NCBI RefSeq assembly: GCF_019649055.1
Contig: NW_026570340.1
Coordinates: forward strand, 310,001-374,000
Direction of reading: 5' to 3'
From: Paramacrobiotus metropolitanus
Taxonomy: Eukaryota > Tardigrada > Eutardigrada > Parachela > Macrobiotidae
Length of the DNA stretch: 64,000 bases
A program made the translations under genes and the position numbers. Below, in pieces: positions 2,740 to 64,000 of this stretch. Below the pieces are notes generated by a model. It was not told the origin of the DNA. It worked only from the letters and a program-made list of their open reading frames with translations, and searched no databases. The stretch's first letter is position 1. Each line of letters opens with the position of its first letter.

Positions 2740-2761
2740 CTTTACATGTGTTAAAACGCAT

Positions 2762-33290: not shown

Positions 33291-33819
33291 ACAAACTCTC
33301 GTGTTGGTCACAAGGAGATAGCCAAAAACTGGATTGCGCTAATATAAGTGATTGCTTAACAAGTTGTTCCATGCCGTTAGCGGTGTGTATCGTGAGATCG
33401 CCAATATTATGTCCTGATTGCATCCGCCTAGAGCAACACAAAAACGCACCAGACATTCGTATCGAGCATGAGGAGATAGCCGAAATTTTAAAGGCATCCA
33501 TACACGTGGATGCAAAAAAAATTGCCATGGGCCGCTATCGGTTTGTGTTGCGACGTCGCCAATAGTGTGATTTATTCGAAGCCACCTAGAGCAACACAAA
33601 ACTGCAACAAACTCTCGTGTTGGTCACAAGGAGATAGCCAAAAACTGGATTGCGCTAATATAAGTGATTGCTTAAACAAATTGTTCCATGCCGTTAGCGG
33701 TGTGTATCGTGAGATCGCCAATATTATGTCCTGATTGCATCCGCCTAGAGCAACACAAAAACGCACCAGACATTCGTATCGAGCATGAGGAGATAGCCGA
33801 AATTTTTAAAGGCATCCAT

Positions 33820-33840
33820 ACACGTGGATGTTGCGACGTC
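33820..33840. repeat. Satellite unit with a 35-bp deletion
   Basis: CACGTGGATG continues directly as TTGCGACGTCGCC. The A-tract and the start of monomer A, about 35 bases, are gone, with TG at both breakpoints. The right arm of the hairpin is therefore cut short by one base. Confidence 0.85.
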
Positions 33841-37800: not shown

Positions 37801-40800
37801 TCGCCAATATTATGTCCTGATTGCATCCGCCTAGAGCAACACAAAAACGCACCAGACATTCGTATCGAGCATGAGGAGATAGCCGAAATTTTAAAGGCAT
37901 CCATACACGTGGATGCAAAAAAAATGCCATGGGCCGCTATCGGTTTGTGTTGCGACGTCGCCAATAGTGTGATTAATTCGAATCCACCTAGAGCAACACA
38001 AAACTGCAACAAACTCTCGTGTTGGTCACAAGGAGATAGCCAAAAACTGGATTGCGCTAATATAAGTGATTGTTAAACAAATTGTTCCATGCCGTTAGCG
38101 GTGTGGATCGTGAGATCGCCAATATTATGTCCTGATTGCATCCGCCTAGAGCAACACAAAAACGCACCAGACATTCGTATCGAGCATGAGGAGATAGCCG
38201 AAATTTTTAATTGCATCCATACACGTGGATGCAGAAAAAGTTGCCATGGGCCGCTATCGGTTTGTGTTGCGACGTCGCCAATAGTGTGATTTATTCGAAG
38301 CCACCTAGAGCAACACAAAACTGCAACAAACTCTCGTGTTGGTCACAAGGAGATAGCCAAAAACCGGATTGCGCTAATATAAGTGATTGCTTAACAAATT
38401 GTTCTATGCCGTTAGCGGTGTGTATCGTGAGATCGCCAATATTATGTCCTGATTGCATCCGCCTAGAGCAACACAAAAACGCACCAGACATTCGTATCGA
38501 GCATGAGGAGATAGCCGAAATTTTAAAGGCATCCATACACGTGGATGCAAAAAAAATTGCCATGGGCCGCTATCGGTTTGTGTTGCGACGTCGCCAATAG
38601 TGTGATTTATTCGAAGCCACCTAGAGCAACACAAAACTGCAACAAACTCTCGTGTTGGTCACAAGGAGATAGCCAAAAACTGGATTGCGCCAATATAAGT
38701 GATTGTTAAACAAATTGTTCTATGCCGTTAGCGGTGTGTATCGTGAGATCGCCAATATTATGTCCTGATTGCATCCGCCTAGAGCAACACAAAAACGCAC
38801 CAGACATTCGTATCGAGCATGAGGAGATAGCCGAAATTTTAATTGCATCCATACACGTGGATGCAGAAAAAGTTGCCATGGGCCGCTATCGGTTTGTGTT
38901 GCGACGTCGCCAGTAGTGTGATTTATTCGAAGCCACCTAGAGCAACACAAAACTGCAACAAACTCTCGTGTTGGTCACAAGGAGATAGCCAAAAACCGGA
39001 TTGCGCTAATATAAGTGATTGCTTAACAAATTGTTCCATGCCGTTAGCGGTGTGTATCGTGAGATCGCCAATATTATGTCCTGATTGCATCCGCCTAGAG
39101 CAACACAAAAACGCACCAGACATTCGTATCGAGCATGAGGAGATAGCCGAAATTTTAAAGGCATCCATACACGTGGATGCAAAAAAAATTGCCATGGGCC
39201 GCTATCGGTTTGTGTTGCGACGTCGCCAATAGTGTGATTTATTCGAAGCCACCTAGAGCAACACAAAACTGCAACAAACTCTCGTGTTGGTCACAAGGAG
39301 ATAGCCAAAAACTGGATTGCGCTAATATAAGTGATTGCTTAACAAGTTGTTCTATGCCGTTAGCGGTGTGTATCGTGAGATCGCCAATATTATGTCCTGA
39401 TTGCATCCGCCTAGAGCAACACAAAAACGCACCAGACATTCGTATCGAGCATGAGGAGATAGCCGAAATTTGGTAAAGGCATCCATACACGTGGATGCAA
39501 AAAAAATTGCTATGGGCCGCTATCGGTTTGTGTTGCGACGTCGCCAATAGTGTGATTTATTCGAAGCCACCTAGAGCAACACAAAACTGCAACAAACTCT
39601 CGTGTTGGTCACAAGGAGATAGCCAAAAAACTGGATTGCGCTAATATAAGTGATTGCTTAAACAAATTGTTCTATGCCGTTAGCGGTGTGTATCGTGAGA
39701 TCGCCAATATTATGTCCTGATTGCATCCGCCTAGAGCAACACAAAAACGCACCAGACATTCGTATCGAGCATGAGGAGATAGCCGAAATTTTAAAGGCAT
39801 CCATACACGTGGATGCAAAAAAAATGCCATGGGCCGCTATCGGTTTGTGTTGCGACGTCGCCAATAGTGTGATTTATTCGAAGCCACCTAGAGCAACACA
39901 AAACTGCAACAAACTCTCGTGTTGGTCACAAGGAGATAGCCAAAAACTGGATTGCGCTAATATAAGTGATTGCTTAAACAAATTGTTCCATGCCGTTAGC
40001 GGTGTGTATCGTGAGATCGCCAATATTATGTCCTGATTGCATCTGCCTAGAGCAACACAAAAACGCTCCAGACATTCGTATCGAGCATGAGGAGATAGCC
40101 GAAATATTTAATTGCATCCATACACGTGGATGCAGAAAAAGATGCCATGGTCCGCTATCGGTTTGTGTTGCGACGTCGCCAGTAGTGTGATTTATTAGAA
40201 GCCACCTAGAGTAACACAAAACTGCAACAAACTCTCGTGTTGGTCACAAGGAGATAGCCAAAAACTGGATTGCGCTAATATAAGTGATTGCTTAAACAAA
40301 TTGTTCTATGCCGTTAGCGGTGTGTATCGTGAGATCGCCAATATTATGTCCTGATTGCATCCGCCTAGAGCAACACAAAAACGCACCAGACATTCGTTTC
40401 TAGCATGAGGAGATAGCCGAAATTTTTAAAGGCATCCATACACGTGGATGCAAAAAAAAATTCCCAAGGGCCGCTATCGGTTTGTGTTGCGACGTCGCCA
40501 ATAGTGTGATTTATTCGAAGCCACCTAGAGCAACACAAAACTGCAACAAACTCTCGTGTTGGTCACAAGGAGATAGCCAAAAACTGGATTGCGCTAATAT
40601 AAGTGATTGCTTAAACAAATTGTTCTATGCCGTTAGCGGTGTGTATCGTGAGATCGCCAATATTATGTCCTGATTGCATCCGCCTAGAGCAACACAAAAA
40701 CGCACCAGACATTCGTATCGAGCATGAGGAGATAGCCGAAATTTTAAAGGCATCCATACACGTGGATGCAAAAAAAATGCCATGGGCCGCTATCGGTTTG

Positions 40801-43800
40801 TGTTGCGACGTCGCCAATAGTGTGATTTATTCGAAGCCACCTAGAGCAACACAAAACTGCAACAAACTCTCGTGTTGGTCACAAGGAGATAGCCAAAAAC
40901 TGGATTGCGCTAATATAAGTGATTGCTTAAACAAATTGTTCCATGCCGTTAGCGGTGTGTATCGTGAGATCGCCAATATTATGTCCTGATTGCATCCGCC
41001 TAGAGCAACACAAAAACGCACCAGACATTCGTATCGAGCATGAGGAGATAGCCGAAATTTTAAAGGCATCCATACACGTGGATGCAAAAAAATTACCATG
41101 GGCCGCTATCGGTTTGTGTTGCGACGTCGCCAATAGTGTGATTTATTCGAAGCCACCTAGAGCAACACAAAACTGCAACAAACTCTCGTGTTGGTCACAA
41201 GGAGATAGCCAAAAACTGGATTGCGCTAATATAAGTGATTGCTTAAACAAATTGTTCCATGCCGTTAGCGGTGTGTATCGTGAGATCGCCAATATTATGT
41301 CCTGATTGCATCCGCCTAGAGCAACACAAAAACGCACCAGACATTCGTATCGAGCATGAGGAGATAGCCGAAATTTTAAAGGCATCCATACACGTGGATG
41401 CAAAAAAAATTACCATGGGCCGCTATCGGTTTGTGTTGCGACGTCGCCAATAGTGTGATTTATTCGAAGCCACCTAGAGCAACACAAAACTGCAACAAAC
41501 TCTCGTGTTGGTCACAAGGAGATAGCCAAAAACTGGATTGCGCTAATATAAGTGATTGCTTAAACAAATTGTTCCATGCCGTTAGCGGTGTGTATCGTGA
41601 GATCGCCAATATTATGTCCTGATTGCATCCGCCTAGAGCAACACAAAAACGCACCAGACATTCGTATCGAGCATGAGGAGATAGCCGAAATTTTAAAGGC
41701 ATCCATACACGTGGATGCAAAAAAAATGCCATGGGCCGCTATCGGTTTGTGTTGCGACGTCGCCAATAGTGTGATTTATTCGAAGCCACCTAGAGCAACA
41801 CAAAACTGCAACAAACTCTCGTGTTGGTCACAAGGAGATAGCCAAAAACTGGATTGCGCTAATATAAGTGATTGCTTAACAAATTGTTCTATGCCGTTAG
41901 CGGTGTGTATCGTGAGATCGCCAATATTATGTCCTGATTGCATCCGCCTAGAGCAACACAAAAACGCACCAGACATTCGTATCGAGCATGAGGAGATAGC
42001 CGAAATTTTAAAGGCATCCATACACGTGGATGCAAAAAAAATTGCCATGGGCCGCTATCGGTTTGTGTTGCGACGTCGCCAATAGTGTGATTTATTCGAA
42101 GCCACCTAGAGCAACACAAAACTGCAACAAACTCTCGTGTTGGTCACAAGGAGATAGCCAAAAACTGGATTGCGCTAATATAAGTGATTGCTTAACAAAT
42201 TGTTCTATGCCGTTAGCGGTGTGTATCGTGAGATCGCCAATATTATGTCCTGATTGCATCCGCCTAGAGCAACACAAAAACGCACCAGACATTCGTATCG
42301 AGCATGAGGAGATAGCCGAAATTTTAAAGGCATCCATACACGTGGATGCAAAAAAAATTGCCATGGGCCGCTATCGGTTTGTGTTGCGACGTCGCCAATA
42401 GTGTGATTTATTCGAAGCCACCTAGAGCAACACAAAACTGCAACAAACTCTCGTGTTGGTCACAAGGAGATAGCCAAAAACTGGATTGCGCTAATATAAG
42501 TGATTGCTTAACAAGTTGTTCTATGCCGTTAGCGGTGTGTATCGTGAGATCGCCAATATTATGTCCTGATTGCATCCGCCTAGAGCAACACAAAAACGCA
42601 CCAGACATTCGTATCGAGCATGAGGAGATAGCCGAAATTTTAAAGGCATCCATACACGTGGATGCAAAAAAAATTGCCATGGGCCGCTATCGGTTTGTGT
42701 TGCGACGTCGCCAATAGTGTGATTTATTCGAAGCCACCTAGAGCAACACAAAACTGCAACAAACTCTCGTGTTGGTCACAAGGAGATAGCCAAAAACTGG
42801 ATTGCGCTAATATAAGTGATTGCTTAAACAAATTGTTCTATGCCGTTAGCGGTGTGTATCGTGAGATCGCCAATATTATGTCCTGATTGCATCCGCCTAG
42901 AGCAACACAAAAACGCACCAGACATTCGTATCGAGCATGAGGAGATAGCCGAAATTTTAAAGGCATCCATACACGTGGATGCAAAAAATTACCATGGGCC
43001 GCTATCGGTTTGTGTTGCGACGTCGCCAATAGTGTGATTTATTCGAAGCCACCTAGAGCAACACAAAACTGCAACAAACTCTCGTGTTGGTCACAAGGAG
43101 ATAGCCAAAAACTGGATTGCGCTAATATAAGTGATTGCTTAACAAATTGTTCTATGCCGTTAGCGGTGTGTATCGTGAGATCGCCAATATTATGTCCTGA
43201 TTGCATCCGCCTAGAGCAACACAAAAACGCACCAGACATTCGTATCGAGCATGAGGAGATAGCCGAAATTTTAAAGGCATCCATACACGTGGATGCAAAA
43301 AAAATGCCATGGGCCGCTATCGGTTTGTGTTGCGACGTCGCCAATAGTGTGATTTATTCGAAGCCACCTAGAGCAACACAAAACTGCAACAAACTCTCGT
43401 GTTGGTCACAAGGAGATAGCCAAAAACTGGATTGCGCTAATATAAGTGATTGCTTAACAAGTTGTTCTATGCCGTTAGCGGTGTGTATCGTGAGATCGCC
43501 AATATTATGTCCTGATTGCATCCGCCTAGAGCAACACAAAAACGCACCAGACATTCGTATCGAGCATGAGGAGATAGCCGAAATTTTTAAAGGCATCCAT
43601 ACACGTGGATGCAAAAAAAATGCCATGGGCCGCTATCGGTTTGTGTTGCGACGTCGCCAATAGTGTGATTTATTCGAAGCCACCTAGAGCAACACAAAAC
43701 TGCAACAAACTCTCGTGTTGGTCACAAGGAGATAGCCAAAAACTGGATTGCGCTAATATAAGTGATTGCTTAACAAATTGTTCTATGCCGTTAGCGGTGT

Positions 43801-46800
43801 GTATCGTGAGATCGCCAATATTATGTCCTGATTGCATCCGCCTAGAGCAACACAAAAACGCACCAGACATTCGTATCGAGCATGAGGAGATAGCCGAAAT
43901 TTTAAAGGCATCCATACACGTGGATGCAAAAAAAATGCCATGGGCCGCTATCGGTTTGTGTTGCGACGTCGCCAATAGTGTGATTTATTCGAAGCCACCT
44001 AGAGCAACACAAAACTGCAACAAACTCTCGTGTTGGTCACAAGGAGATAGCCAAAAACTGGATTGCGCTAATATAAGTGATTGCTTAACAAATTGTTCTA
44101 TGCCGTTAGCGGTGTGTATCGTGAGATCGCCAATATTATGTCCTGATTGCATCCGCTAGAGCAACACAAAAACGCACCAGACATTCGTATCGAGCATGAG
44201 GAGATAGCCGAAATTTTAAAGGCATCCATACACGTGGATGCAAAAAAAATGCCATGGGCCGCTATCGGTTTGTGTTGCGACGTCGCCAATAGTGTGATTT
44301 ATTCGAAGCCACCTAGAGCAACACAAAACTGCAACAAACTCTCGTGTTGGTCACAAGGAGATAGCCAAAAACTGGATTGCGCTAATATAAGTGATTGCTT
44401 AACAAATTGTTCTATGCCGTTAGCGGTGTGTATCGTGAGATCGCCAATATTATGTCCTGATTGCATCCGCCTAGAGCAACACAAAAACGCACCAGACATT
44501 CGTATCGAGCATGAGGAGATAGCCGAAATTTTAAAGGCATCCATACACGTGGATGCAAAAAAAATTGCCATGGGCCGCTATCGGTTTGTGTTGCGACGTC
44601 GCCAATAGTGTGATTTATTCGAAGCCACCTAGAGCAACACAAAACTGCAACAAACTCTCGTGTTGGTCACAAGGAGATAGCCAAAAACTGGATTGCGCTA
44701 ATATAAGTGATTGCTTAACAAGTTGTTCTATGCCGTTAGCGGTGTGTATCGTGAGATCGCCAATATTATGTCCTGATTGCATCCGCCTAGAGCAACACAA
44801 AAACGCACCAGACATTCGTATCGAGCATGAGGAGATAGCCGAAATTTTTAAAGGCATCCATACACGTGGATGCAAAAAAAAATTGCCATGGGCCGCTATC
44901 GGTTTGTGTTGCGACGTCGCCAATAGTGTGATTTATTCGAAGCCACCTAGAGCAACACAAAACTGCAACAAACTCTCGTGTTGGTCACAAGGAGATAGCC
45001 AAAAACTGGATTGCGCTAATATAAGTGATTGTTAAACAAATTGTTCTATGCCGTTAGCGGTGTGTATCGTGAGATCGCCAATATTATGTCCTGATTGCAT
45101 CCGCCTAGAGCAACACAAAAACGCACCAGACATTCGTATCGAGCATGAGGAGATAGCCGAAATTTTAAAGGCATCCATACACGTGGATGCAAAAAAAATG
45201 CCATGGGCCGCTATCGGTTTGTGTTGCGACGTCGCCAATAGTGTGATTTATTCGAAGCCACCTAGAGCAACACAAAAGTGCAACAAACTCTCGTGTTGGT
45301 CACAAGGAGATAGCCAAAAACTGGATTGCGCTAATATAAGTGATTGCTTAACAAATTGTTCTATGCCGTTAGCGGTGTGTATCGTGAGATCGCCAATATT
45401 ATGTCCTGATTGCATCCGCCTAGAGCAACACAAAAACGCACCAGACATTCGTATCGAGCATGAGGAGATAGCCGAAATTTGGTAAAGGCATCCATACACG
45501 TGGATGCAAAAAAAAATGCCATGGGCCGCTATCGGTTTGTGTTGCGACGTCGCCAATAGTGTGATTTATTCGAAGCCACCTAGAGCAACACAAAACTGCA
45601 ACAAACTCTCGTGTTGGTCACAAGGAGATAGCCAAAAACCGGATTGCGCTAATATAATTGATTGCTTAACAAATTGTTCTATGCCGTTAGCGGTGTGTAT
45701 CGTGAGATCGCCAATATTATGTCCTGATTGCATCCGCTAGAGCAACACAAAAACGCACCAGACATTCGTATCGAGCATGAGGAGATAGCCGAAATTTTAA
45801 AGGCATCCATACACGTGGATGCAAAAAAAATGCCATGGGCCGCTATCGGTTTGTGTTGCGACGTCGCCAATAGTGTGATTTATTCGAAGCCACCTAGAGC
45901 AACACAAAACTGCAACAAACTCTCGTGTTGGTCACAAGGAGATAGCCAAGAACTGGATTGCGCTAATATAAGTGATTGCTTAACAAGTTGTTCTATGCCG
46001 TTAGCGGTGTGTATCGTGAGATCGCCAATATTATGTCCTGATTGCATCCGCCTAGAGCAACACAAAAACGCACCAGACATTCGTTTCTAGCATGAGGAGA
46101 TAGCCGAAATTTTTAAAGGCATCCATACACGTGGATGCAAAAAAAAATTCCCAAGGGCCGCTATCGGTTTGTGTTGCGACGTCGCCAATAGTGTGATTTA
46201 TTCGAAGCCACCTAGAGCAACACAAAACTGCAACAAACTCTCGTGTTGGTCACAAGGAGATAGCCAAGAACTGGATTGCGCTAATATAAGTGATTGCTTA
46301 ACAAGTTGTTCTATGCCGTTAGCGGTGTGTATCGTGAGATCGCCAATATTATGTCCTGATTGCATCCGCCTAGAGCAACACAAAAACGCACCAGACATTC
46401 GTATCTAGCATGAGGAGATAGCCGAAATTTTAAAGGCATCCATACACGTGGATGCAAAAAAAATGCCATGGGCCGCTATCGGTTTGTGTTGCGACGTCGC
46501 CAATAGTGTGATTTATTCGAAGCCACCTAGAGCAACACAAAACTGCAACAAACTCTCGTGTTGGTCACAAGGAGATAGCCAAAAACTGGATTGCGCTAAT
46601 ATAAGTGATTGCTTAACAAATTGTTCTATGCCGTTAGCGGTGTGTATCGTGAGATCGCCAATATTATGTCCTGATTGCATCCGCTAGAGCAACACAAAAA
46701 CGCACCAGACATTCGTATCGAGCATGAGGAGATAGCCGAAATTTTAAAGGCATCCATACACGTGGATGCAAAAAAAAATGCCATGGGCCGCTATCGGTTT

Positions 46801-49800
46801 GTGTTGCGACGTCGCCAATAGTGTGATTTATTCGAAGCCACCTAGAGCAACACAAAACTGCAACAAACTCTCGTGTTGGTCACAAGGAGATAGCCAAAAA
46901 CTGGATTGCGCTAATATAAGTGATTGCTTAACAAATTGTTCTATGCCGTTAGCGGTGTGTATCGTGAGATCGCCAATATTATGTCCTGATTGCATCCGCC
47001 TAGAGCAACACAAAAACGCACCAGACATTCGTATCGAGCATGAGGAGATAGCCGAAATTTTAAAGGCATCCATACACGTGGATGCAAAAAAAATGCCATG
47101 GGCCGCTATCGGTTTGTGTTGCGACGTCGCCAATAGTGTGATTTATTCGAAGCCACCTAGAGCAACACAAAACTGCAACAAACTCTCGTGTTGGTCACAA
47201 GGAGATAGCCAAAAACTGGATTGCGCTAATATAAGTGATTGCTTAACAAATTGTTCTATGCCGTTAGCGGTGTGTATCGTGAGATCGCCAATATTATGTC
47301 CTGATTGCATCCGCTAGAGCAACACAAAAACGCACCAGACATTCGTATCGAGCATGAGGAGATAGCCGAAATTTTAAAGGCATCCATACACGTGGATGCA
47401 AAAAAATTACCATGGGCCGCTATCGGTTTGTGTTGCGACGTCGCCAATAGTGTGATTTATTCGAAGCCACCTAGAGCAACACAAAACTGCAACAAACTCT
47501 CGTGTTGGTCACAAGGAGATAGCCAAAAACTGGATTGCGCTAATATAAGTGATTGCTTAACAAGTTGTTCTATGCCGTTAGCGGTGTGTATCGTGAGATC
47601 GCCAATATTATGTCCTGATTGCATCCGCCTAGAGCAACACAAAAACGCACCAGACATTCGTTTCTAGCATGAGGAGATAGCCGAAATTTTTAAAGGCATC
47701 CATACACGTGGATGCAAAAAAAATTGCCAAGGGCCGCTATCGGTTTGTGTTGCGACGTCGCCAATAGTGTGATTTATTGGAAGCCACCTAGAGCAACACA
47801 AAACTGCAACAAACTCTCGTGTTGGTCACAAGGAGATAGCCAAAAACTGGATTGCACTAATATAAGTGTTTGCTTAACAGGTTGTTCTATGCCGTTAGCG
47901 GTGTGTATCGTGAGATCGCCAATATTATGTCCTGATTGCATCCGCCTAGAGCAACACAAAAACGCACCAGACATTCGTATCTAGCATGAGGAGATAGCCG
48001 AAATTTTTAAAGGCATCCATACACGTGGATGCAAAAAAAAATTGCCAAGGGCCGCTATCGGTTTGTGTTGCGACGTCGCCAATAGTGTGATTTATTCGAA
48101 GCCACCTAGAGCAACACAAAAGTGCAACAAACTCTCGTGTTGGTCACAAGGAGATAGCCAAAAACCGGATTGCGCTAATATAATTGATTGCTTAACAAAT
48201 TGTTCTATGCCGTTAGCGGTGTGTATCGTGAGATCGCCAATATTATGTCCTGATTGCATCCGCCTAGAGCAACACAAAAACGCACCAGACATTCGTATCG
48301 AGCATGAGGAGATAGCCGAAATTTTGTAAAGGCATCCATACACGTGGATGCAAAAAAAAATGCCATGGGCCGCTATCGGTTTGTGTTGCGACGTCGCCAA
48401 TAGTGTGATTTATTCGAAGCCACCTAGAGCAACACAAAACTGCAACAAACTCTCGTGTTGGTCACAAGGAGATAGCCAAAAACCGGATTGCGCTAATATA
48501 AGTGATTGCTTAACAAATTGTTCTATGCCGTTAGCGGTGTGTATCGTGAGATCGCCAATATTATGTCCTGATTGCATCCGCTAGAGCAACACAAAAACGC
48601 ACCAGACATTCGTATCGAGCATGAGGAGATAGCCGAAATTTTAAAGGCATCCATACACGTGGATGCAAAAAAAATTACCATGGGCCGCTATCGGTTTGTG
48701 TTGCGACGTCGCCAATAGTGTGATTTATTCGAAGCCACCTAGAGCAACACAAAACTGCAACAAACTCTCGTGTTGGTCACAAGGAGATAGCCAAAAACTG
48801 GATTGCGCTAATATAAGTGATTGCTTAAACAAATTGTTCTATGCCGTTAGCGGTGTGTATCGTGAGATCGCCAATATTATGTCCTGATTGCATCCGCTAG
48901 AGCAACACAAAAACGCACCAGACATTCGTATCGAGCATGAGGAGATAGCCGAAATTTTAAAGGCATCCATACACGTGGATGCAAAAAAAATTGCCATGGG
49001 CCGCTATCGGTTTGTGTTGCGACGTCGCCAATAGTGTGATTTATTCGAAGCCACCTAGAGCAACACAAAACTGCAACAAACTCTCGTGTTGGTCACAAGG
49101 AGATAGCCAAGAACTGGATTGCGCTAATATAAGTGTTTGCTTAACAGGTTGTTCTATGCCGTTAGCGGTGTGTATCGTGAGATCGCCAATATTATGTCCT
49201 GATTGCATCCGCCTAGAGCAACACAAAAACGCACCAGACATTCGTATCTAGCATGAGGAGATAGCCGAAATTTTTAAAGGCATCCATACACGTGGATGCA
49301 AAAAAAAATTCCCAAGGGCCGCTATCGGTTTGTGTTGCGACGTCGCCAATAGTGTGATTTATTGGAAGCCACCTAGAGCAACACAAAACTGCAACAAACT
49401 CTCGTGTTGGTCACAAGGAGATAGCCAAGAACTGGATTGCGCTAATATAAGTGATTGCTTAACAAGTTGTTCTATGCCGTTAGCGGTGTGTATCGTGAGA
49501 TCGCCAATATTATGTCCTGATTGCATCCGCCTAGAGCAACACAAAAACGCACCAGACATTCGTATCTAGCATGAGGAGATAGCCGAAATTTTTAAAGGCA
49601 TCCATACACGTGGATGCAAAAAAAATGCCATGGGCCGCTATCGGTTTGTGTTGCGACGTCGCCAATAGTGTGATTTATTCGAAGCCACCTAGAGCAACAC
49701 AAAACTGCAACAAACTCTCGTGTTGGTCACAAGGAGATAGCCAAAAACTGGATTGCGCTAATATAAGTGATTGTTAACAAATTGTTCCATGCCGTTAGCG

Positions 49801-51160
49801 GTGTGTATCGTGAGATCGCCAATATTATGTCCTGATTGCATCCGCCTAGAGCAACACAAAAACGCACCAGACATTCGTATCGAGCATGAGGAGATAGCCG
49901 AAATTTTAAAGGCATCCATACACGTGGATGCAAAAAAAGTGCCATGGGCCGCTATCGGTTTGTGTTGCGACGTCGCCAATAGTGTGATTTATTCGAAGCC
50001 ACCTAGAGCAACACAAAACTGCAACAAACTCTCGTGTTGGTCACAAGGAGATAGCCAAAAACTGGATTGCGCTAATATAAGTGATTGCTTAACAAATTGT
50101 TCTATGCCGTTAGCGGTGTGTATCGTGAGATCGCCAATATTATGTCCTGATTGCATCCGCTAGAGCAACACAAAAACGCACCAGACATTCGTATCGAGCA
50201 TGAGGAGATAGCCGAAATTTTAAAGGCATCCATACACGTGGATGCAAAAAAAATTACCATGGGCCGCTATCGGTTTGTTTTGCGACGTCGCAAATAGTGT
50301 GATTTATTCGAAGCCACCTAGAGCAACACAAAACTGCAACAAACTCTCGTGTTGGTCACAAGGAGATAGCCAAAAACTGGATTGCGCTAATATAAGTGAT
50401 TGTAAAACAAATTGTTCCATGCCGTTAGCGGTGTGTATCGTGAGATCGCCAATATTATGTCCTGATTGCATCCGCTTAGAGCAACACAAAAACGCACCAG
50501 ACATTCGTATCGAGCATGAGGAGATAGCCGAAATTTTAAAGGCATCCATACACGTGGATGCAAAAAAATGCCATGGGCCGCTATCGGTTTGTTTTGCGAC
50601 GTCGCAAATAGTGTGATTTATTCGAAGCCACCTAGAGCAACACAAAACTGCAACAAACTCTCGTGTTGGTCACAAGGAGATAGCCAAAAACTGGATTGCG
50701 CTAATATAAGTGATTGCTTAAACAAATTGTTCCATGCCGTTAGCGGTGTGTATCGTGAGATCGCCAATATTATGTCCTGATTGCATCCGCCTAGAGCAAC
50801 ACAAAAACGCACCAGACATTCGTATCGAGCATGAGGAGATAGCCGAAATTTTTAAAGGCATCCATACACGTGGATGCAAAAAAAATGCCATGGGCCGCTA
50901 TCGGTTTGTGTTGCGACGTCGCCAATAGTGTGATTTATTCGAAGCCACCTAGAGCAACACAAAACTGCAACAAACTCTCGTGTTGGTCACAAGGAGATAG
51001 CCAAAAACTGGATTGCGCTAATATAAGTGATTGTAAACAAATTGTTCTATGCCGTTAGCGGTGTGTATCGTGAGATCGCCAATATTATGTCCTGATTGCA
51101 TCCGCTAGAGCAACACAAAACGCACCAGACATTCGTATCGAGCATGAGGAGATAGCCGAA
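34900..51160. repeat. Middle zone with runs of 315-bp units
   Basis: Many units in this zone read AAAAAAAATGCCATGGG, having lost TT before GCC, and use the short junction AAATTTTAAAGG, giving exactly 315 bp. Consecutive 315-bp units keep translation phase and create long open frames (for example 35064-36233). The zone also holds the CGTTTCTAGC and TTCCCAAGGG variants (37.2, 40.4, 46.1, 47.7 and 49.3 kb) and CATCCGCTAGAGC copies with one base missing (44.1-51.1 kb). Confidence 0.7.
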
Positions 51161-51220
51161 ATTCATCCATACACGTGGATGCACCATAAGGAGATAGCCG
51201 AAATTTTTAAAGGCATCCAT
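51155..51220. repeat. 50-bp mini-unit with duplicated hairpin
   Basis: Hairpin marks stand at 51164 and 51214, only 50 bp apart. The first is preceded by GCCGAAATT without the usual AAAGG; after it, GCACCATAAGGAGATAGCCG joins the start of monomer A to the GATAGCCG segment of monomer B. The join lies where the A and B cores share AGGAGATAGCC, which fits recombination between the two monomers. Confidence 0.8.
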
Positions 51221-54200
51221 ACACGTGGATGCAAAAAAAATTACCATGCCGCTATCGGTTTGTGTTGCGACGTCGCCAATAGTGTGATTTATTCGAAGCC
51301 ACCTAGAGCAACACAAAACTGCAACAAACTCTCGTGTTGGTCACAAGGAGATAGCCAAAAACTGGATTGCGCTAATATAAGTGATTGTTAACAAATTGTT
51401 CATGCCGTTAGCGGTGTGTATCGTGAGATCGCCAATATTATGTCCTGATTGCATCCGCTTAGAGCAACACAAAACGCACCAGACATTCGTATCGAGCATG
51501 AGGAGATAGCCGAAATTTTTAAAGGCATCCATACACGTGGATGCAAAAAAAATTGCCATGGGCCGCTATCGGTTTGTGTTGCGACGTCGCCAATAGTGTG
51601 ATTTATTCGAAGCCACCTAGAGCAACACAAAACTGCAACAAACTCTCGCGTTGGTCACAAGGAGATAGCCAAAAACTGGATTGCGCCAATATAAGTGATT
51701 GTTAAACAAATTGTTCTATGCCGTTAGCGGTGTGTATCGTGAGATCGCCAATATTATGTCCTGATTGCATCCGCCTAGAGCAACACAAAACGCACCAGAG
51801 ATTCGTATCGAGCATGAGGAGATAGCCGAAATTTTTAATTGCATCCATACACGTGGATGCGGAAAAAATTGCCATGGGCCGCTATCGGTTTGTGTTGCGA
51901 CGTCGCCAATAGTGTGATTTATTCGAAGCCACCTAGAGCAACACAAAACTGCAACAAACTCTCGTGTTGGTCACAAGGAGATAGCCAAAAACCGGATTGC
52001 GCTAATATAAGTGATTGCTTAACAAATTGTTCTATGCCGTTAGCGGTGTGTATCGTGAGATCGCCAATATTATGTCCTGATTGCATCCGCCTAGAGCAAC
52101 ACAAAACGCACCAGACATTCGTATCGAGCATGAGGAGATAGCCGAAATTTTGTAAAGGCATCCATACACGTGGATGCAAAAAAAAATTGCCATGGGCCGC
52201 TATCGGTTTGTGTTGCGACGTCGCCAGTAGTGTGATTTATTCGAAGCCACCTAGAGTAACACAAAACTGCAACAAACTCTCGCGTTGGTCACAAGGAGAT
52301 AGCCAAAAACTGGATTGCGCCAATATAAGTGATTGTTAAACAAATTGTTCCATGCCGTTAGCGGTGTGGATCGTGAGATCGCCAATATTATGTCCTGATT
52401 GCATCCGCTTAGAGCAACACAAAACGCACCAGAGATTCGTATCGAGCATGAGGAGATAGCCGAAATTTTGTAAAGGCATCCATACACGTGGATGCAAAAA
52501 ATTGCCATGGGCCGCTATCGGTTTGTGTTGCGACGTCGCCAATAGTGTGATTTATTCGAAGCCACCTAGAGCAACACAAAACTGCAACAAACTCTCGTGT
52601 TGGTCACAAGGAGATAGCCAAAAACTGGATTGCGCTATTATAAGTGATTGCTTAAACAAATTGTTCTATGCCGTTAGCGGTGTGTATCGTGAGATCGCCA
52701 ATATTATGTCCTGATTGCATCCGCCTAGAGCAACACAAAACGCACCAGACATTCGTATCGAGCATGAGGAGATAGCCGAAATTTGGTAAAGGCATCCATA
52801 CACGTGGATGCAAAAAAAAATTGCCATGGGCCGCTATCGGTTTGTGTTGCGACGTCGCCAGTAGTGTGATTTATTCGAAGCCACCTAGAGTAACACAAAA
52901 CTGCAACAAACTCTCGCGTTGGTCACAAGGAGATAGCCAAAAACTGGATTGCGCCAATATAAGTGATTGTTAAACAAATTGTTCCATGCCGTTAGCGGTG
53001 TGGATCGTGAGATCGCCAATATTATGTCCTGATTGCATCTGCCTAGAGCAACACAAAAACGCACCAGACATTCGTATCGAGCATGAGGAGATAGCCGAAA
53101 TTTTTAATTGCATCCATACACGTGGATGCAAAAAAATTGCCATGGGCCGCTATCGGTTTGTGTTGCGACGTCGCCAATAGTGTGATTTATTCGAAGCCAC
53201 CTAGAGCAACACAAAACTGCAACAAACTCTCGCGTTGGTCACAAGGAGATAGCCAAAAACTGGATTGCGCTAATATAAGTGATTGCTAAACAAATTGTTC
53301 CATGCCGTTAGCGGTGTGTATCGTGAGATTGCCAATATTATGTCCTGATTGCATCCGCTTAGAGCAACACAAAACGCACCAGACATTCGTATCTAGCATG
53401 AGGAGATAGCCGAAATTTTTAAAGGCATCCATACACGTGGATGCAAAAAAATTGCCATGGGCCGCTATCGGTTTGTGTTGCGACATCGCCAATAGTGTGA
53501 TTTATTCGAAGCCACCTAGAGCAACACAAAACTGCAACAAACTCTCGTGTTGGTCACAAGGAGATAGCCAAAAACTGGATTGCGCTAATATAAGTGATTG
53601 TTAAACAAATTGTTCCATGCCGTTAGCGGTGTGTATCGTGAGATCGCCAATATTATGTCCTGATTGCATCCGCCTAGAGCAGCACAAAACGCACCAGACA
53701 TTCGTATCTAGCATGAGGAGATAGCCGAAATTTTTAAAGGCATCCATACACGTGGATGCAAAAAAAATTGCCATGGGCCGCTATCGGTTTGTGTTGCGAC
53801 GTCGCCAATAGTGTGATTTATTCGAAGCCACCTAGAGCAACACAAAACTGCAACAAACTCTCGTGTTGGTCACAAGGAGATAGCCAAAAACTGGATTGCG
53901 CTAATATAAGTGATTGTTAAACAAATTGTTCCATGCCGTTAGCGGTGTGTATCGTGAGATCGCCAATATTATGTCCTGATTGCATCCGCCTAGAGCAACA
54001 CAAAAACGCACCAGACATTCGTATCTAGCATGAGGAGATAGCCGAAATTTTTAAAGGCATCCATACACGTGGATGCAAAAAAAATTGCCATGGGCCGCTA
54101 TCGGTTTGTGTTGCGACGTCGCCAATAGTGTGATTTATTCGAAGCCACCTAGAGCAACACAAAACTGCAACAAACTCTCGCGTTGGTCACAAGGAGATAG

Positions 54201-57200
54201 CCAAAAACTGGATTGCGCTAATATAAGTGATTGTTAAACAAATTGTTCCATGCCGTTAGCGGTGTGTATCGTGAGATCGCCAATATTATGTCCTGATTGC
54301 ATCCGCCTAGAGCAACACAAAAACGCACCAGACATTCGTATCTAGCATGAGGAGATAGCCGAAATTTTTAAAGGCATCCATACACGTGGATGCAAAAAAT
54401 TACCATGGGCCGCTATCGGTTTGTGTTGCGACGTCGCCAATAGTGTGATTTATTCGAAGCCACCTAGAGCAACACAAAACTGCAACAAACTCTCGCGTTG
54501 GTCACAAGGAGATAGCCAAAAACTGGATTGCGCTAATATAAGTGATTGCTTAAACAAATTGTTCCATGCCGTTAGCGGTGTGTATCGTGAGATCGCCAAT
54601 ATTATGTCCTGATTGCATCCGCTTAGAGCAACACAAAAACGCACCAGACATTCGTATCGAGCATGAGGAGATAGCCGAAATTTTTAAAGGCATCCATACA
54701 CGTGGATGCAAAAAAATTGCCATGGGCCGCTATCGGTTTGTGTTGCGACGTCGCCAATAGTGTGATTTATTCGAAGCCACCTAGAGCAACACAAAACTGC
54801 AACAAACTCTCGTGTTGGTCACAAGGAGATAGCCAAAAACTGGATTGCGCTAATATAAGTGATTGCTTAAACAAATTGTTCCATGCCGTTAGCGGTGTGT
54901 ATCGTGAGATCGCCAATATTATGTCCTGATTGCATCCGCCTAGAGCAACACAAAAACGCACCAGACATTCGTATCGAGCATGAGGAGATAGCCGAAATTT
55001 TTAAAGGCATCCATACACGTGGATGCAAAAAAAATTGCCATGGGCCGCTATCGGTTTGTGTTGCGACGTCGCCAATAGTGTGATTTATTCGAAGCCACCT
55101 AGAGCAACACAAAACTGCAACAAACTCTCGTGTTGGTCACAAGGAGATAGCCAAAAACTGGATTGCGCTAATATAAGTGATTGTTAAACAAATTGTTCCA
55201 TGCCGTTAGCGGTGTGTATCGTGAGATCGCCAATATTATGTCCTGATTGCATCCGCCTAGAGCAACACAAAAACGCACCAGACATTCGTATCTAGCATGA
55301 GGAGATAGCCGAAATTTTTAAAGGCATCCATACACGTGGATGCAAAAAAATTGCCATGGGCCGCTATCGGTTTGTGTTGCGACGTCGCCAATAGTGTGAT
55401 TTATTCGAAGCCACCTAGAGCAACACAAAACTGCAACAAACTCTCGCGTTGGTCACAAGGAGATAGCCAAAAACTGGATTGCGCTAATATAAGTGATTGC
55501 TTAAACAAATTGTTCCATGCCGTTAGCGGTGTGTATCGTGAGATCGCCAATATTATGTCCTGATTGCATCCGCCTAGAGCAACACAAAAACGCACCAGAC
55601 ATTCGTATCTAGCATGAGGAGATAGCCGAAATTTTTAAAGGCATCCATACACGTGGATGCAAAAAAAATTGCCATGGGCCGCTATCGGTTTGTGTTGCGA
55701 CGTCGCCAATAGTGTGATTTATTCGAAGCCACCTAGAGCAACACAAAACTGCAACAAACTCTCGCGTTGGTCACAAGGAGATAGCCAAAAACTGGATTGC
55801 GCTAATATAAGTGATTGCTTAAACAAATTGTTCCATGCCGTTAGCGGTGTGTATCGTGAGATCGCCAATATTATGTCCTGATTGCATCCGCCTAGAGCAA
55901 CACAAAAACGCACCAGACATTCGTATCTAGCATGAGGAGATAGCCGAAATTTTTAAAGGCATCCATACACGTGGATGCAAAAAAATTGCCATGGGCCGCT
56001 ATCGGTTTGTGTTGCGACGTCGCCAATAGTGTGATTTATTCGAAGCCACCTAGAGCAACACAAAACTGCAACAAACTCTCGCGTTGGTCACAAGGAGATA
56101 GCCAAAAACTGGATTGCGCTAATATAAGTGATTGCTTAAACAAATTGTTCCATGCCGTTAGCGGTGTGTATCGTGAGATCGCCAATATTATGTCCTGATT
56201 GCATCCGCCTAGAGCAACACAAAAACGCACCAGACATTCGTATCTAGCATGAGGAGATAGCCGAAATTTTTAAAGGCATCCATACACGTGGATGCAAAAA
56301 AAATTGCCATGGGCCGCTATCGGTTTGTGTTGCGACGTCGCCAATAGTGTGATTTATTCGAAGCCACCTAGAGCAACACAAAACTGCAACAAACTCTCGC
56401 GTTGGTCACAAGGAGATAGCCAAAAACTGGATTGCGCTAATATAAGTGATTGTTAAACAAATTGTTCCATGCCGTTAGCGGTGTGTATCGTGAGATCGCC
56501 AATATTATGTCCTGATTGCATCCGCCTAGAGCAACACAAAAACGCACCAGACATTCGTATCTAGCATGAGGAGATAGCCGAAATTTTTAAAGGCATCCAT
56601 ACACGTGGATGCAAAAAAATTGCCATGGGCCGCTATCGGTTTGTGTTGCGACGTCGCCAATAGTGTGATTTATTCGAAGCCACCTAGAGCAACACAAAAC
56701 TGCAACAAACTCTCGTGTTGGTCACAAGGAGATAGCCAAAAACTGGATTGCGCTAATATAAGTGATTGTTAAACAAATTGTTCCATGCCGTTAGCGGTGT
56801 GTATCGTGAGATCGCCAATATTATGTCCTGATTGCATCCGCCTAGAGCAACACAAAAACGCACCAGACATTCGTATCTAGCATGAGGAGATAGCCGAAAT
56901 TTTTAAAGGCATCCATACACGTGGATGCAAAAAAATTGCCATGGGCCGCTATCGGTTTGTGTTGCGACGTCGCCAATAGTGTGATTTATTCGAAGCCACC
57001 TAGAGCAACACAAAACTGCAACAAACTCTCGCGTTGGTCACAAGGAGATAGCCAAAAACTGGATTGCGCTAATATAAGTGATTGTTAAACAAATTGTTCC
57101 ATGCCGTTAGCGGTGTGTATCGTGAGATCGCCAATATTATGTCCTGATTGCATCCGCTTAGAGCAACACAAAAACGCACCAGACATTCGTATCTAGCATG

Positions 57201-58521
57201 AGGAGATAGCCGAAATTTTTAAAGGCATCCATACACGTGGATGCAAAAAAATTGCCATGGGCCGCTATCGGTTTGTGTTGCGACGTCGCCAATAGTGTGA
57301 TTTATTCGAAGCCACCTAGAGCAACACAAAACTGCAACAAACTCTCGCGTTGGTCACAAGGAGATAGCCAAAAACTGGATTGCGCTAATATAAGTGATTG
57401 TTAAACAAATTGTTCCATGCCGTTAGCGGTGTGTATCGTGAGATCGCCAATATTATGTCCTGATTGCATCCGCTTAGAGCAACACAAAAACGCACCAGAC
57501 ATTCGTATCTAGCATGAGGAGATAGCCGAAATTTTTAAAGGCATCCATACACGTGGATGCAAAAAAAATTGCCATGGGCCGCTATCGGTTTGTGTTGCGA
57601 CGTCGCCAATAGTGTGATTTATTCGAAGCCACCTAGAGCAACACAAAACTGCAACAAACTCTCGCGTTGGTCACAAGGAGATAGCCAAAAACTGGATTGC
57701 GCTAATATAAGTGATTGTTAAACAAATTGTTCCATGCCGTTAGCGGTGTGTATCGTGAGATCGCCAATATTATGTCCTGATTGCATCCGCTTAGAGCAAC
57801 ACAAAAACGCACCAGACATTCGTATCTAGCATGAGGAGATAGCCGAAATTTTTAAAGGCATCCATACACGTGGATGCAAAAAAATTGCCATGGGCCGCTA
57901 TCGGTTTGTGTTGCGACGTCGCCAATAGTGTGATTTATTCGAAGCCACCTAGAGCAACACAAAACTGCAACAAACTCTCGCGTTGGTCACAAGGAGATAG
58001 CCAAAAACTGGATTGCGCTAATATAAGTGATTGTTAAACAAATTGTTCCATGCCGTTAGCGGTGTGTATCGTGAGATCGCCAATATTATGTCCTGATTGC
58101 ATCCGCTTAGAGCAACACAAAAACGCACCAGACATTCGTATCTAGCATGAGGAGATAGCCGAAATTTTTAAAGGCATCCATACACGTGGATGCAAAAAAA
58201 TTGCCATGGGCCGCTATCGGTTTGTGTTGCGACGTCGCCAATAGTGTGATTTATTCGAAGCCACCTAGAGCAACACAAAACTGCAACAAACTCTCGCGTT
58301 GGTCACAAGGAGATAGCCAAAAACTGGATTGCGCTAATATAAGTGATTGTTAAACAAATTGTTCCATGCCGTTAGCGGTGTGTATCGTGAGATCGCCAAT
58401 ATTATGTCCTGATTGCATCCGCTTAGAGCAACACAAAAACGCACCAGACATTCGTATCTAGCATGAGGAGATAGCCGAAATTTTTAAAGGCATCCATACA
58501 CGTGGATGCAAAAAAATTGCC

Positions 58522-58681
58522 ATGGGCCGCTATCGGTTTGTGTTGCGACGTCGCCAATAGTGTGATTTATTCGAAGCCACCTAGAGCAACACAAAACTGC
58601 AACAAACTCTCGCGTTGGTCACAAGGAGATAGCCAAAAACTGGATTGCGCTAATATAAGTGATTGTTAAACAAATTGTTCC
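58522..58681 (+). repeat. Representative monomer A (160 bp) of the satellite unit
   Basis: Given as the type copy of the first half-unit. It starts at ATGGGCCGCTATCGG, contains the palindrome GCGACGTCGC, the conserved core CCTAGAGCAACACAAAA and then AAGGAGATAGCC, and ends at AAATTGTTCC. It aligns with monomer B beginning at the same relative place: 25 of 33 positions match in the first block up to CGCCAATA, and 52 of 75 match in the following gapless block up to GATAGCC (by-eye count). Variable sites in A across the array include CTGG/CCGG, TCGTG/TCGCG, GCTAAT/GCCAAT and three forms of the segment after GTGATTG. Confidence 0.9.
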
Positions 58682-58837
58682 ATGCCGTTAGCGGTGTGTA
58701 TCGTGAGATCGCCAATATTATGTCCTGATTGCATCCGCTTAGAGCAACACAAAAACGCACCAGACATTCGTATCTAGCATGAGGAGATAGCCGAAATTTT
58801 TAAAGGCATCCATACACGTGGATGCAAAAAAATTGCC
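58682..58837 (+). repeat. Representative monomer B (156 bp) of the satellite unit
   Basis: Type copy of the second half-unit. It starts at ATGCCGTTAGCGG, carries the shared core CCTAGAGCAACACAAAA (here with CTTAG) and AGGAGATAGCC, then the hairpin and the A-tract, and ends at TTGCC. Relative to A it lacks the 10-bp palindrome (the aligned bases read GTGAGATCGC) but has gained self-complementary arms in the hairpin. The aligned 20 bases of A match at 12 positions and do not form the stem. Variable sites in B include CGCCTAG/CGCTTAG, ACAAAAACG/ACAAAACG, GACATTC/GAGATTC, ATCGAGC/ATCTAGC and the AAATTTT-AAAGG junction. Confidence 0.9.
58806..58825. repeat. Type copy of the per-unit hairpin with CACGTG
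   Basis: GCATCCA and TGGATGC form a perfect 7-bp stem around a 6-base loop (TACACG). The hexamer CACGTG, a palindromic E-box, spans the loop and the right arm. The sequence is almost invariant from the first unit (6848) to the last (63855), even where neighbouring bases vary. Deleted units at 26164 and 51164 keep it; the unit at 33.2 kb has a shortened form. It is directly followed by the A-tract. Confidence 0.8.
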
Positions 58838-58860
58838 ATGGGCCGCTATCGGTTTGTGTT

Positions 58861-58870
58861 GCGACGTCGC
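58861..58870. repeat. Type copy of the per-unit palindrome GCGACGTCGC
   Basis: A perfect 10-bp palindrome occurring once per unit in monomer A and absent from the aligned site of monomer B. It contains three CpG dinucleotides in an otherwise moderately AT-rich unit. Nearly all copies are intact; one mutated copy (GCGACATCGC) is seen at about 53480, and 50280-50610 holds copies whose following base changes (GTCGCAAA). Confidence 0.75.
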
Positions 58871-61800
58871 CAATAGTGTGATTTATTCGAAGCCACCTAG
58901 AGCAACACAAAACTGCAACAAACTCTCGCGTTGGTCACAAGGAGATAGCCAAAAACTGGATTGCGCTAATATAAGTGATTGTTAAACAAATTGTTCCATG
59001 CCGTTAGCGGTGTGTATCGTGAGATCGCCAATATTATGTCCTGATTGCATCCGCTTAGAGCAACACAAAAACGCACCAGACATTCGTATCTAGCATGAGG
59101 AGATAGCCGAAATTTTTAAAGGCATCCATACACGTGGATGCAAAAAAAATTGCCATGGGCCGCTATCGGTTTGTGTTGCGACGTCGCCAATAGTGTGATT
59201 TATTCGAAGCCACCTAGAGCAACACAAAACTGCAACAAACTCTCGCGTTGGTCACAAGGAGATAGCCAAAAACTGGATTGCGCTAATATAAGTGATTGTT
59301 AAACAAATTGTTCCATGCCGTTAGCGGTGTGTATCGTGAGATCGCCAATATTATGTCCTGATTGCATCCGCTTAGAGCAACACAAAAACGCACCAGACAT
59401 TCGTATCTAGCATGAGGAGATAGCCGAAATTTTTAAAGGCATCCATACACGTGGATGCAAAAAAAATTGCCATGGGCCGCTATCGGTTTGTGTTGCGACG
59501 TCGCCAATAGTGTGATTTATTCGAAGCCACCTAGAGCAACACAAAACTGCAACAAACTCTCGCGTTGGTCACAAGGAGATAGCCAAAAACTGGATTGCGC
59601 TAATATAAGTGATTGTTAAACAAATTGTTCCATGCCGTTAGCGGTGTGTATCGTGAGATCGCCAATATTATGTCCTGATTGCATCCGCTTAGAGCAACAC
59701 AAAAACGCACCAGACATTCGTATCGAGCATGAGGAGATAGCCGAAATTTTTAAAGGCATCCATACACGTGGATGCAGAAAAAGTTGCCATGGGCCGCTAT
59801 CGGTTTGTGTTGCGACGTCGCCAATAGTGTGATTTATTCGAAGCCACCTAGAGCAACACAAAACTGCAACAAACTCTCGCGTTGGTCACAAGGAGATAGC
59901 CAAAAACTGGATTGCGCTAATATAAGTGATTGTTAAACAAATTGTTCCATGCCGTTAGCGGTGTGTATCGTGAGATCGCCAATATTATGTCCTGATTGCA
60001 TCCGCTTAGAGCAACACAAAAACGCACCAGACATTCGTATCTAGCATGAGGAGATAGCCGAAATTTTTAAAGGCATCCATACACGTGGATGCAAAAAAAT
60101 TGCCATGGGCCGCTATCGGTTTGTGTTGCGACGTCGCCAATAGTGTGATTTATTCGAAGCCACCTAGAGCAACACAAAACTGCAACAAACTCTCGCGTTG
60201 GTCACAAGGAGATAGCCAAAAACTGGATTGCGCTAATATAAGTGATTGTTAAACAAATTGTTCCATGCCGTTAGCGGTGTGTATCGTGAGATCGCCAATA
60301 TTATGTCCTGATTGCATCCGCTTAGAGCAACACAAAAACGCACCAGACATTCGTATCTAGCATGAGGAGATAGCCAAAATTTTTAAAGGCATCCATACAC
60401 GTGGATGCAAAAAAATTGCCATGGGCCGCTATCGGTTTGTGTTGCGACGTCGCCAATAGTGTGATTTATTCGAAGCCACCTAGAGCAACACAAAACTGCA
60501 ACAAACTCTCGCGTTGGTCACAAGGAGATAGCCAAAAACTGGATTGCGCTAATATAAGTGATTGTTAAACAAATTGTTCCATGCCGTTAGCGGTGTGTAT
60601 CGTGAGATCGCCAATATTATGTCCTGATTGCATCCGCTTAGAGCAACACAAAAACGCACCAGACATTCGTATCTAGCATGAGGAGATAGCCGAAATTTTT
60701 AAAGGCATCCATACACGTGGATGCAAAAAAATTGCCATGGGCCGCTATCGGTTTGTGTTGCGACGTCGCCAATAGTGTGATTTATTCGAAGCCACCTAGA
60801 GCAACACAAAACTGCAACAAACTCTCGCGTTGGTCACAAGGAGATAGCCAAAAACTGGATTGCGCTAATATAAGTGATTGTTAAACAAATTGTTCCATGC
60901 CGTTAGCGGTGTGTATCGTGAGATCGCCAATATTATGTCCTGATTGCATCCGCTTAGAGCAACACAAAAACGCACCAGACATTCGTATCTAGCATGAGGA
61001 GATAGCCGAAATTTTTAAAGGCATCCATACACGTGGATGCAAAAAAATTGCCATGGGCCGCTATCGGTTTGTGTTGCGACGTCGCCAATAGTGTGATTTA
61101 TTCGAAGCCACCTAGAGCAACACAAAACTGCAACAAACTCTCGCGTTGGTCACAAGGAGATAGCCAAAAACTGGATTGCGCTAATATAAGTGATTGTTAA
61201 ACAAATTGTTCCATGCCGTTAGCGGTGTGTATCGTGAGATCGCCAATATTATGTCCTGATTGCATCCGCTTAGAGCAACACAAAAACGCACCAGACATTC
61301 GTATCTAGCATGAGGAGATAGCCGAAATTTTTAAAGGCATCCATACACGTGGATGCAAAAAAATTGCCATGGGCCGCTATCGGTTTGTGTTGCGACGTCG
61401 CCAATAGTGTGATTTATTCGAAGCCACCTAGAGCAACACAAAACTGCAACAAACTCTCGCGTTGGTCACAAGGAGATAGCCAAAAACTGGATTGCGCTAA
61501 TATAAGTGATTGTTAAACAAATTGTTCCATGCCGTTAGCGGTGTGTATCGTGAGATCGCCAATATTATGTCCTGATTGCATCCGCTTAGAGCAACACAAA
61601 AACGCACCAGACATTCGTATCTAGCATGAGGAGATAGCCGAAATTTTTAAAGGCATCCATACACGTGGATGCAAAAAAAATTGCCATGGGCCGCTATCGG
61701 TTTGTGTTGCGACGTCGCCAATAGTGTGATTTATTCGAAGCCACCTAGAGCAACACAAAACTGCAACAAACTCTCGCGTTGGTCACAAGGAGATAGCCAA

Positions 61801-64000
61801 AAACTGGATTGCGCTAATATAAGTGATTGTTAAACAAATTGTTCCATGCCGTTAGCGGTGTGTATCGTGAGATTGCCAATATTGATTGCATCCGCTTAGA
61901 GCAACACAAAAACGCACCAGACATTCGTATCTAGCATGAGGAGATAGCCGAAATTTTTAAAGGCATCCATACACGTGGATGCAAAAAAAATTGCCATGGG
62001 CCGCTATCGGTTTGTGTTGCGACGTCGCCAATAGTGTGATTTATTCGAAGCCACCTAGAGCAACACAAAACTGCAACAAACTCTCGCGTTGGTCACAAGG
62101 AGATAGCCAAAAACTGGATTGCGCTAATATAAGTGATTGTTAAACAAATTGTTCCATGCCGTTAGCGGTGTGTATCGTGAGATCGCCAATATTATGTCCT
62201 GATTGCATCCGCTTAGAGCAACACAAAAACGCACCAGACATTCGTATCTAGCATGAGGAGATAGCCGAAATTTTTAAAGGCATCCATACACGTGGATGCA
62301 AAAAAATTGCCATGGGCCGCTATCGGTTTGTGTTGCGACGTCGCCAATAGTGTGATTTATTCGAAGCCACCTAGAGCAACACAAAACTGCAACAAACTCT
62401 CGCGTTGGTCACAAGGAGATAGCCAAAAACTGGATTGCGCTAATATAAGTGATTGTTAAACAAATTGTTCCATGCCGTTAGCGGTGTGTATCGTGAGATC
62501 GCCAATATTATGTCCTGATTGCATCCGCTTAGAGCAACACAAAAACGCACCAGACATTCGTATCTAGCATGAGGAGATAGCCGAAATTTTTAAAGGCATC
62601 CATACACGTGGATGCAAAAAAATTGCCATGGGCCGCTATCGGTTTGTGTTGCGACGTCGCCAATAGTGTGATTTATTCGAAGCCACCTAGAGCAACACAA
62701 AACTGCAACAAACTCTCGCGTTGGTCACAAGGAGATAGCCAAAAACTGGATTGCGCTAATATAAGTGATTGTTAAACAAATTGTTCCATGCCGTTAGCGG
62801 TGTGTATCGTGAGATCGCCAATATTATGTCCTGATTGCATCCGCTTAGAGCAACACAAAAACGCACCAGACATTCGTATCTAGCATGAGGAGATAGCCGA
62901 AATTTTTAAAGGCATCCATACACGTGGATGCAAAAAAAATTGCCATGGGCCGCTATCGGTTTGTGTTGCGACGTCGCCAATAGTGTGATTTATTCGAAGC
63001 CACCTAGAGCAACACAAAACTGCAACAAACTCTCGCGTTGGTCACAAGGAGATAGCCAAAAACTGGATTGCGCTAATATAAGTGATTGTTAAACAAATTG
63101 TTCCATGCCGTTAGCGGTGTGTATCGTGAGATTGCCAATATTGATTGCATCCGCTTAGAGCAACACAAAAACGCACCAGACATTCGTATCTAGCATGAGG
63201 AGATAGCCGAAATTTTTAAAGGCATCCATACACGTGGATGCAAAAAAAATTGCCATGGGCCGCTATCGGTTTGTGTTGCGACGTCGCCAATAGTGTGATT
63301 TATTCGAAGCCACCTAGAGCAACACAAAACTGCAACAAACTCTCGCGTTGGTCACAAGGAGATAGCCAAAAACTGGATTGCGCTAATATAAGTGATTGTT
63401 AAACAAATTGTTCCATGCCGTTAGCGGTGTGTATCGTGAGATCGCCAATATTATGTCCTGATTGCATCCGCTTAGAGCAACACAAAAACGCACCAGACAT
63501 TCGTATCTAGCATGAGGAGATAGCCGAAATTTTTAAAGGCATCCATACACGTGGATGCAAAAAAATTGCCATGGGCCGCTATCGGTTTGTGTTGCGACGT
63601 CGCCAATAGTGTGATTTATTCGAAGCCACCTAGAGCAACACAAAACTGCAACAAACTCTCGCGTTGGTCACAAGGAGATAGCCAAAAACTGGATTGCGCT
63701 AATATAAGTGATTGTTAAACAAATTGTTCCATGCCGTTAGCGGTGTGTATCGTGAGATCGCCAATATTATGTCCTGATTGCATCCGCTTAGAGCAACACA
63801 AAAACGCACCAGACATTCGTATCTAGCATGAGGAGATAGCCGAAATTTTTAAAGGCATCCATACACGTGGATGCAAAAAAATTGCCATGGGCCGCTATCG
63901 GTTTGTGTTGCGACGTCGCCAATAGTGTGATTTATTCGAAGCCACCTAGAGCAACACAAAACTGCAACAAACTCTCGCGTTGGTCACAAGGAGATAGCCA

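Follow-up and report, generated by a model that had tools for sequence, protein, structure and literature searches.

The window analysed here, a stretch of 64,000 nucleotides of the tardigrade Paramacrobiotus metropolitanus (positions 310001-374000 of contig NW_026570340.1, hereafter C120; the assembly comprises 169.8 Mb in 533 contigs), raises the question of whether its 316-bp tandem repeat is a genuine higher-order repeat made of two related monomers, A and B, and of how such a pair came into being. The AB satellite array, delineated by TRF and nhmmer segmentation, occupies window positions 6790..64000 on the forward strand and runs on to C120:409346, its full extent being C120:316790-409346, or 92.6 kb with 587 monomer matches. 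The window itself holds 181 A and 181 B monomers together with 2 short pieces, and monomer lengths are mostly 156-161 bp, with a few outliers. On the left flank, the first 6,789 bases of the window contain no satellite array. They do contain, on the reverse strand at 2947-3336, a retrotransposon fragment with 84 of 112 residues identical to a reading frame of contig C396 (L021:1731-4619); that frame, 963 aa long, has a reverse transcriptase domain, and the match falls in its final third. At the other end, the array is directly abutted by an AT-rich satellite (33% G+C; C120:409367-410675) with units of 95-109 bp, which reaches the contig end at 410675 and gives a weak hint of doubling (identity of 0.852 at lag 1 and 0.882 at lag 2).

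The unit at 58522-58837 splits into monomer A (58522..58681, 160 bp) and monomer B (58682..58837, 156 bp), both on the forward strand, exactly where the sequence-only reading that preceded this work had placed them. Global alignment of the two halves comprises 111 identities, 40 mismatches, and 14 gap positions, so that 111 of the 151 aligned columns are identical. Its score of 47.5 lies far above those of 2,000 dinucleotide-shuffled versions of B, which average -3.8 (sd 5.3) and do not exceed 18, and rotating B circularly gives no better score than its natural phase (47.5 at rotation 0; maximum 17.5 in 200 shuffles). This comparison with shuffled controls, proposed along with the unit, bears out the descent of A and B from a common ancestor of about 158 bp, and the idea that their likeness reflects chance or low-complexity matching, for which nothing could be counted, is rejected by these same scores as practically inconceivable. 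Several details of the earlier alignment had to be amended. The 25 identities over the opening 33 positions are recovered once A is shifted ahead of B by two bases, which requires a 2-bp gap near the start; the gapless block of 75 columns exists, with 50 matches at best in the range tried rather than 52; and the hairpin region of B comes close to A at 11 of 20 positions instead of 12. Regarding the shared cores that had been reported, all on the forward strand, AGGAGATAGCC is exact in both halves (58624..58634 in A, 58782..58792 in B), while the first core is reduced to TAGAGCAACACAAAA in this unit, A having CCTAGAGC and B CTTAGAGC at the same place. The B consensus of C120 has CCTAGAGC, unlike the B of this unit. 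Shared core sequence also covers 58581..58596 in A (CTAGAGCAACACAAAA) and 58739..58754 in B (TTAGAGCAACACAAAA), and a third core common to both monomers, TCGCCAATA, lies at 58551..58559 in A and 58709..58717 in B. As candidate selected motifs, the shared cores are weak, the longest shared run being reached in 1,145 of 2,000 permutations. Among the AB strings searched for in published text, only AGGAGATAGCC occurs, in papers with unrelated titles.

At least four contigs carry the dimer. Besides C120, AB monomers are found on C116 (374737-419000 and a small block at 426873-427666; 286 monomer matches), C396 (21 matches), and C401 (64 matches), which brings the four arrays to 958 monomer matches and the AB sequence found to ~151 kb, or 0.09% of the 169.8-Mb assembly. 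Both large arrays sit toward contig ends. A pattern built on the two main cores returns 659 exact matches assembly-wide, distributed over the analysed part of C120 (571), C116 (56), and C401 (32); the C396 array does not contain any, so further diverged arrays could have been missed. Between the main C116 array and its small outlying block lie adjoining open frames that resemble an LTR retroelement (C116:420633-426402; L026:133-5902), one of them with an integrase core domain.

In the window, TRF finds the 316-bp array with 94% matches and, over 51185-64000, a period of 158 bp with 65%; the corresponding scores, 74428 for the multimer and 9638 for the monomer, come from different stretches. 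Where both periods are scored over the same stretch, the multimer reaches 6110 versus 2735 for the monomer in C396, and 4032 versus 1915 and 12482 versus 5404 in C401. With gaps counted, the identities at lag 1 and lag 2 amount to 0.660 and 0.979 in C120, 0.650 and 0.949 in C116, and 0.674 and 0.958 in C396 (each sampled with at most 60 pairs per lag), and to 0.669 and 0.923 in C401. Array consensuses compared between three arrays are 91-93% identical for A with A, 90-93% for B with B, and 70-73% for A with B, the C116 consensus being derived from its 404000-420500 part only and that of C120 from 73 sampled monomers per type. Of 949 monomers of usable length in the four arrays, 63 were sampled for a tree, in which a branch of length 0.47 with 100/100 support divides A from B; this support comes from a bootstrap that had not settled, and the sample retains one C396 edge monomer with a very long branch. 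This split across arrays indicates that the AB pair formed before the arrays separated. The satellite is therefore a true dimeric higher-order repeat, as the sequence-only reading had claimed: its monomers are homologous, and the lag identities, TRF analysis, and tree concur in an identity between units that far exceeds the identity between monomers.

Departures from the strict alternation are rare. The four arrays contain only 2 same-type junctions among their 958 monomer matches, both in C120. In one of them, at window positions 26039..26349 (forward strand), B is directly followed by B. In the A-A junction, the second monomer (C120:381616-381778) is a hybrid that starts as B and, by eye, continues as A from the TCGCCAATA core, as expected for exchange between the A and B types; it looks like the product of an A x B exchange at this shared core. 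Other irregular monomers are a truncated B of 85 bp (33126..33210; C120:343126) and an internally rearranged B (51047..51243; C120:361047), both on the forward strand, as well as another short or rearranged piece at C116:410417. The C120 dimers comprise 193 distinct sequences out of 289, the commonest being that of 58522-58837 with 29 identical copies. These unchanged dimers form short series with variant dimers in between, within a strongly homogenised stretch that starts at window position 56941, covers the remainder of the window (56941..64000, forward strand), and continues to C120:379575. Lag-2 identity per 10-kb bin ranges from 0.962 to 0.996 along C120, with its top at 370-380 kb, and per 5-kb bin from 0.924 to 0.974 along C116 for the bins with 22 or more pairs; two C116 bins, each with just three pairs, fall below this range: the one at the left edge has 0.801 and that of the small outlying block 0.815. 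Divergence is thus greater at the left edge of this array, yet A and B still alternate there. The edges of the C120 array consist of near-consensus dimers (0.96-0.99, except for the cut first B) and are devoid of any old monomeric flank. The dimer is locally homogenised, and the pattern of its variants is the mark of local, recent copying in dimer steps. If the array or its regularity were a product of the assembly, the few irregular monomers and the 29 identical dimers could reflect assembler collapse or copying; however, the same AB order recurs on four separate contigs with different sequence variants, which makes this explanation very improbable.

The surroundings of the C116 array suggest another way to account for the pairing, namely selection on the period itself. 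A different satellite, with units of 322-324 bp (L022:1-4688, L026:7145-8559, and L027:589-3600, partly inverted), borders this array on either side and is made up of two ~162-bp halves, C and D, that are homologous to each other (local score of 49 versus a maximum of 17 in 500 shuffles). Within C116:370000-434500, 59 CD matches were obtained, 30 to the left and 29 to the right of the main AB array, in mostly alternating C/D order with 6 inverted matches and a small number of neighbours of like type; one of the 29 right-hand matches extends across the boundary with the small AB block. Same-type pairs drawn from 49 near-full CD monomers average an identity of 0.750 and unlike pairs 0.608, so CD is older or less homogenised than AB. 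Comparison by single sequence detects no homology between AB and CD, and comparison by profile yields 24.3 and 33.7 for the two strands versus shuffle means of 31.7 and 30.7, the positive control of A against B giving 150 versus 40. Elsewhere in the assembly, CD is matched only in C452, where the repeat counts are lower bounds. Two CD stretches about 3 kb apart on C116 (370001-371276 and 373074-374361) show the same succession of C/D identities, which suggests a duplication.

If the two-monomer period were selected, as a dinucleosome-scale unit or as one bound by a protein at every second monomer, unrelated satellites of the region would settle near ~320 bp. The presence of a non-homologous dimer of ~162-bp halves around the C116 array fits this idea, as does the lower variability, within arrays, of the columns in which A and B agree (6 of 153 circular shifts are as low). 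However, these are only two families at one locus, and C120 shows no such contrast in variability (0.0103 versus 0.0105). Moreover, no dinucleotide period accompanies the unit, and the AT-rich satellite next to the C120 array has units of 95-109 bp with only a weak doubling (0.852/0.882). Twenty small contigs, sampled over their initial 3 kb, yielded no satellite of ~160 bp, short-period repeats being present in two of them; there is accordingly no sign of a genome-wide habit. Selection on the period is thus unlikely, and somewhat less likely still is its fuller form, in which the unrelated AB and CD satellites would have independently reached a ~320-bp unit of two halves at C116, a dinucleosome unit or an alternate-nucleosome protein being what was selected while the sequence was replaced. 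Two families are too few to call convergence.

The length of ~158 bp was first remarked upon as being near that of one nucleosome plus linker. This fit in length stands, but the AA/TT/TA/AT periodicity of ~10 bp in the unit does not exceed that of shuffled sequence, 340 out of 500 shuffles being as high, and the nucleosome link of the ~158-bp step is one of length alone. The hairpin of B, an inverted repeat with 7-bp arms (GCATCCA...TGGATGC; 58806..58825, forward strand) that is found in B only, retains 7 of 7 pairs in all 290 C120 B monomers examined and in 10 of 10 in C396. In C116, 72 of 142 monomers lack one or two of the pairs, as do 27 of 30 in C401, where 2 more have no match. As a selected structure the hairpin was rejected: shuffling the unit 300 times yields a perfect 7-bp stem in 54 cases, which keeps it within chance, and the broken variants listed are mismatches, not compensated pairs. 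A search for RNA families over window positions 1-9000, which include about seven dimers, reports 3 matches, all below gathering scores and all outside the array.

What has to be explained is a locally homogenised dimer that is older than the separation of its arrays. In the scenario that we favour, a ~158-bp sequence would have been duplicated in tandem, its copies would have diverged to about 71% identity, and the AB pair would then have become the spreading unit. We infer unequal crossing over and gene conversion as the process: AB, with dimers 92-98% alike in any one array, would pair with AB much more readily than A would with B, so that arrays would grow and homogenise one dimer at a time and A and B would remain distinct. 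Taken together, a dimeric higher-order-repeat satellite with this origin, spread, and homogenisation is a highly probable account of the data. The strongest competitor, which we rate somewhat below an even chance, is that the satellite was dimeric from the start: a single duplication of a 158-bp segment, for instance within a mobile element, would have given the 316-bp product that was then amplified, an array of single 158-bp monomers never having existed. In agreement with this, the four arrays contain no single-type run and just the two same-type junctions, and the near-consensus edges of the C120 array lack an old monomeric flank. Tandem arrays of unpaired 158-bp monomers turned up neither in the four AB arrays nor among the 40 candidates, out of 378 elsewhere in the assembly, that were scored. 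Nothing decisive speaks against it, since an ancestral monomer array would vanish by turnover anyway and a single one-off duplication before amplification would leave the same sequence; at its left edge the C116 array shows greater divergence (0.80, three pairs), with A and B still in alternation.

Whether the AB arrays constitute constitutive heterochromatin at or near centromeres, with their ~158-bp step fitting nucleosome spacing, is close to an even call. The satellite neighbours and the location of the large arrays near contig ends argue for such a role. At 0.09% of the assembly, the AB sequence found is scarcer than one would expect of a main centromere repeat, although collapse of satellite arrays may have lowered the figure. 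The analysed pieces of C120, C116, C396, and C401 contain no telomere-type repeats, which, together with the missing nucleosome-like dinucleotide period, also counts against the centromere. In alpha satellite dimers, one of the two monomers carries a CENP-B box. The 316-bp unit lacks a CENP-B-like box on both strands when up to 2 mismatches are allowed, which likewise counts against the centromere.

The dimeric arrangement is already known from the satellites of many animals and plants, of which AB by itself is one more. In the survey by Melters et al. (2013, PMC4053949), clear higher-order structure is reported for 76 of 171 species with Sanger data. Compared by description, AB resembles the dimers reported there in displaying a doubled period with higher identity and TRF score, and in that A and B cluster apart; a difference is that a second, unrelated dimer of similar size adjoins one of the AB arrays. 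The same paper describes the 343-bp alpha satellite of New World monkeys, which resembles AB in being a dimer of a ~171-bp ancestor with weakly alike halves that became the repeating unit, and differs in that the AB monomer is ~158 bp long and that single-monomer relatives exist in other primates, none being found here. Human alpha satellite of the SF1 and SF2 families likewise alternates two monomers up to ~30% apart (PMC8122249), whereas the AB unit is devoid of a CENP-B-like box within 2 mismatches. With monomers of mostly 156-161 bp, AB also differs from alpha satellite and its monomer of 171 bp. Compared by description, the regular and usually dimeric higher-order repeats of several beetles (PMC5615363) and Drosophila Responder, a dimer of 120-bp monomers that are 84% alike (PMC8122249), share the dimeric build of AB and differ in monomer length and divergence. 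Lastly, active human centromeres are surrounded by older satellite layers (PMC2729386), and C116 is similar in having a homogeneous array with more diverged satellite on both sides. The C116 flanks, however, are not detectably of the AB family, as the older layers of a layered centromere would be, and represent one locus.

The part worth following is therefore C116, where two unrelated dimers of the same size share one locus. It offers a testable case of satellite replacement: a homogeneous dimer sits there between stretches of an unrelated one, which is of similar size and more diverged. Should CENH3 be located on such arrays, the locus would bear on whether centromeres keep repeat length and pairing rather than sequence. 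As a minor observation on a different repeat, C452 carries an 84-bp tandem repeat of 16.8 copies (L030:2-1411) with long open frames on both strands.
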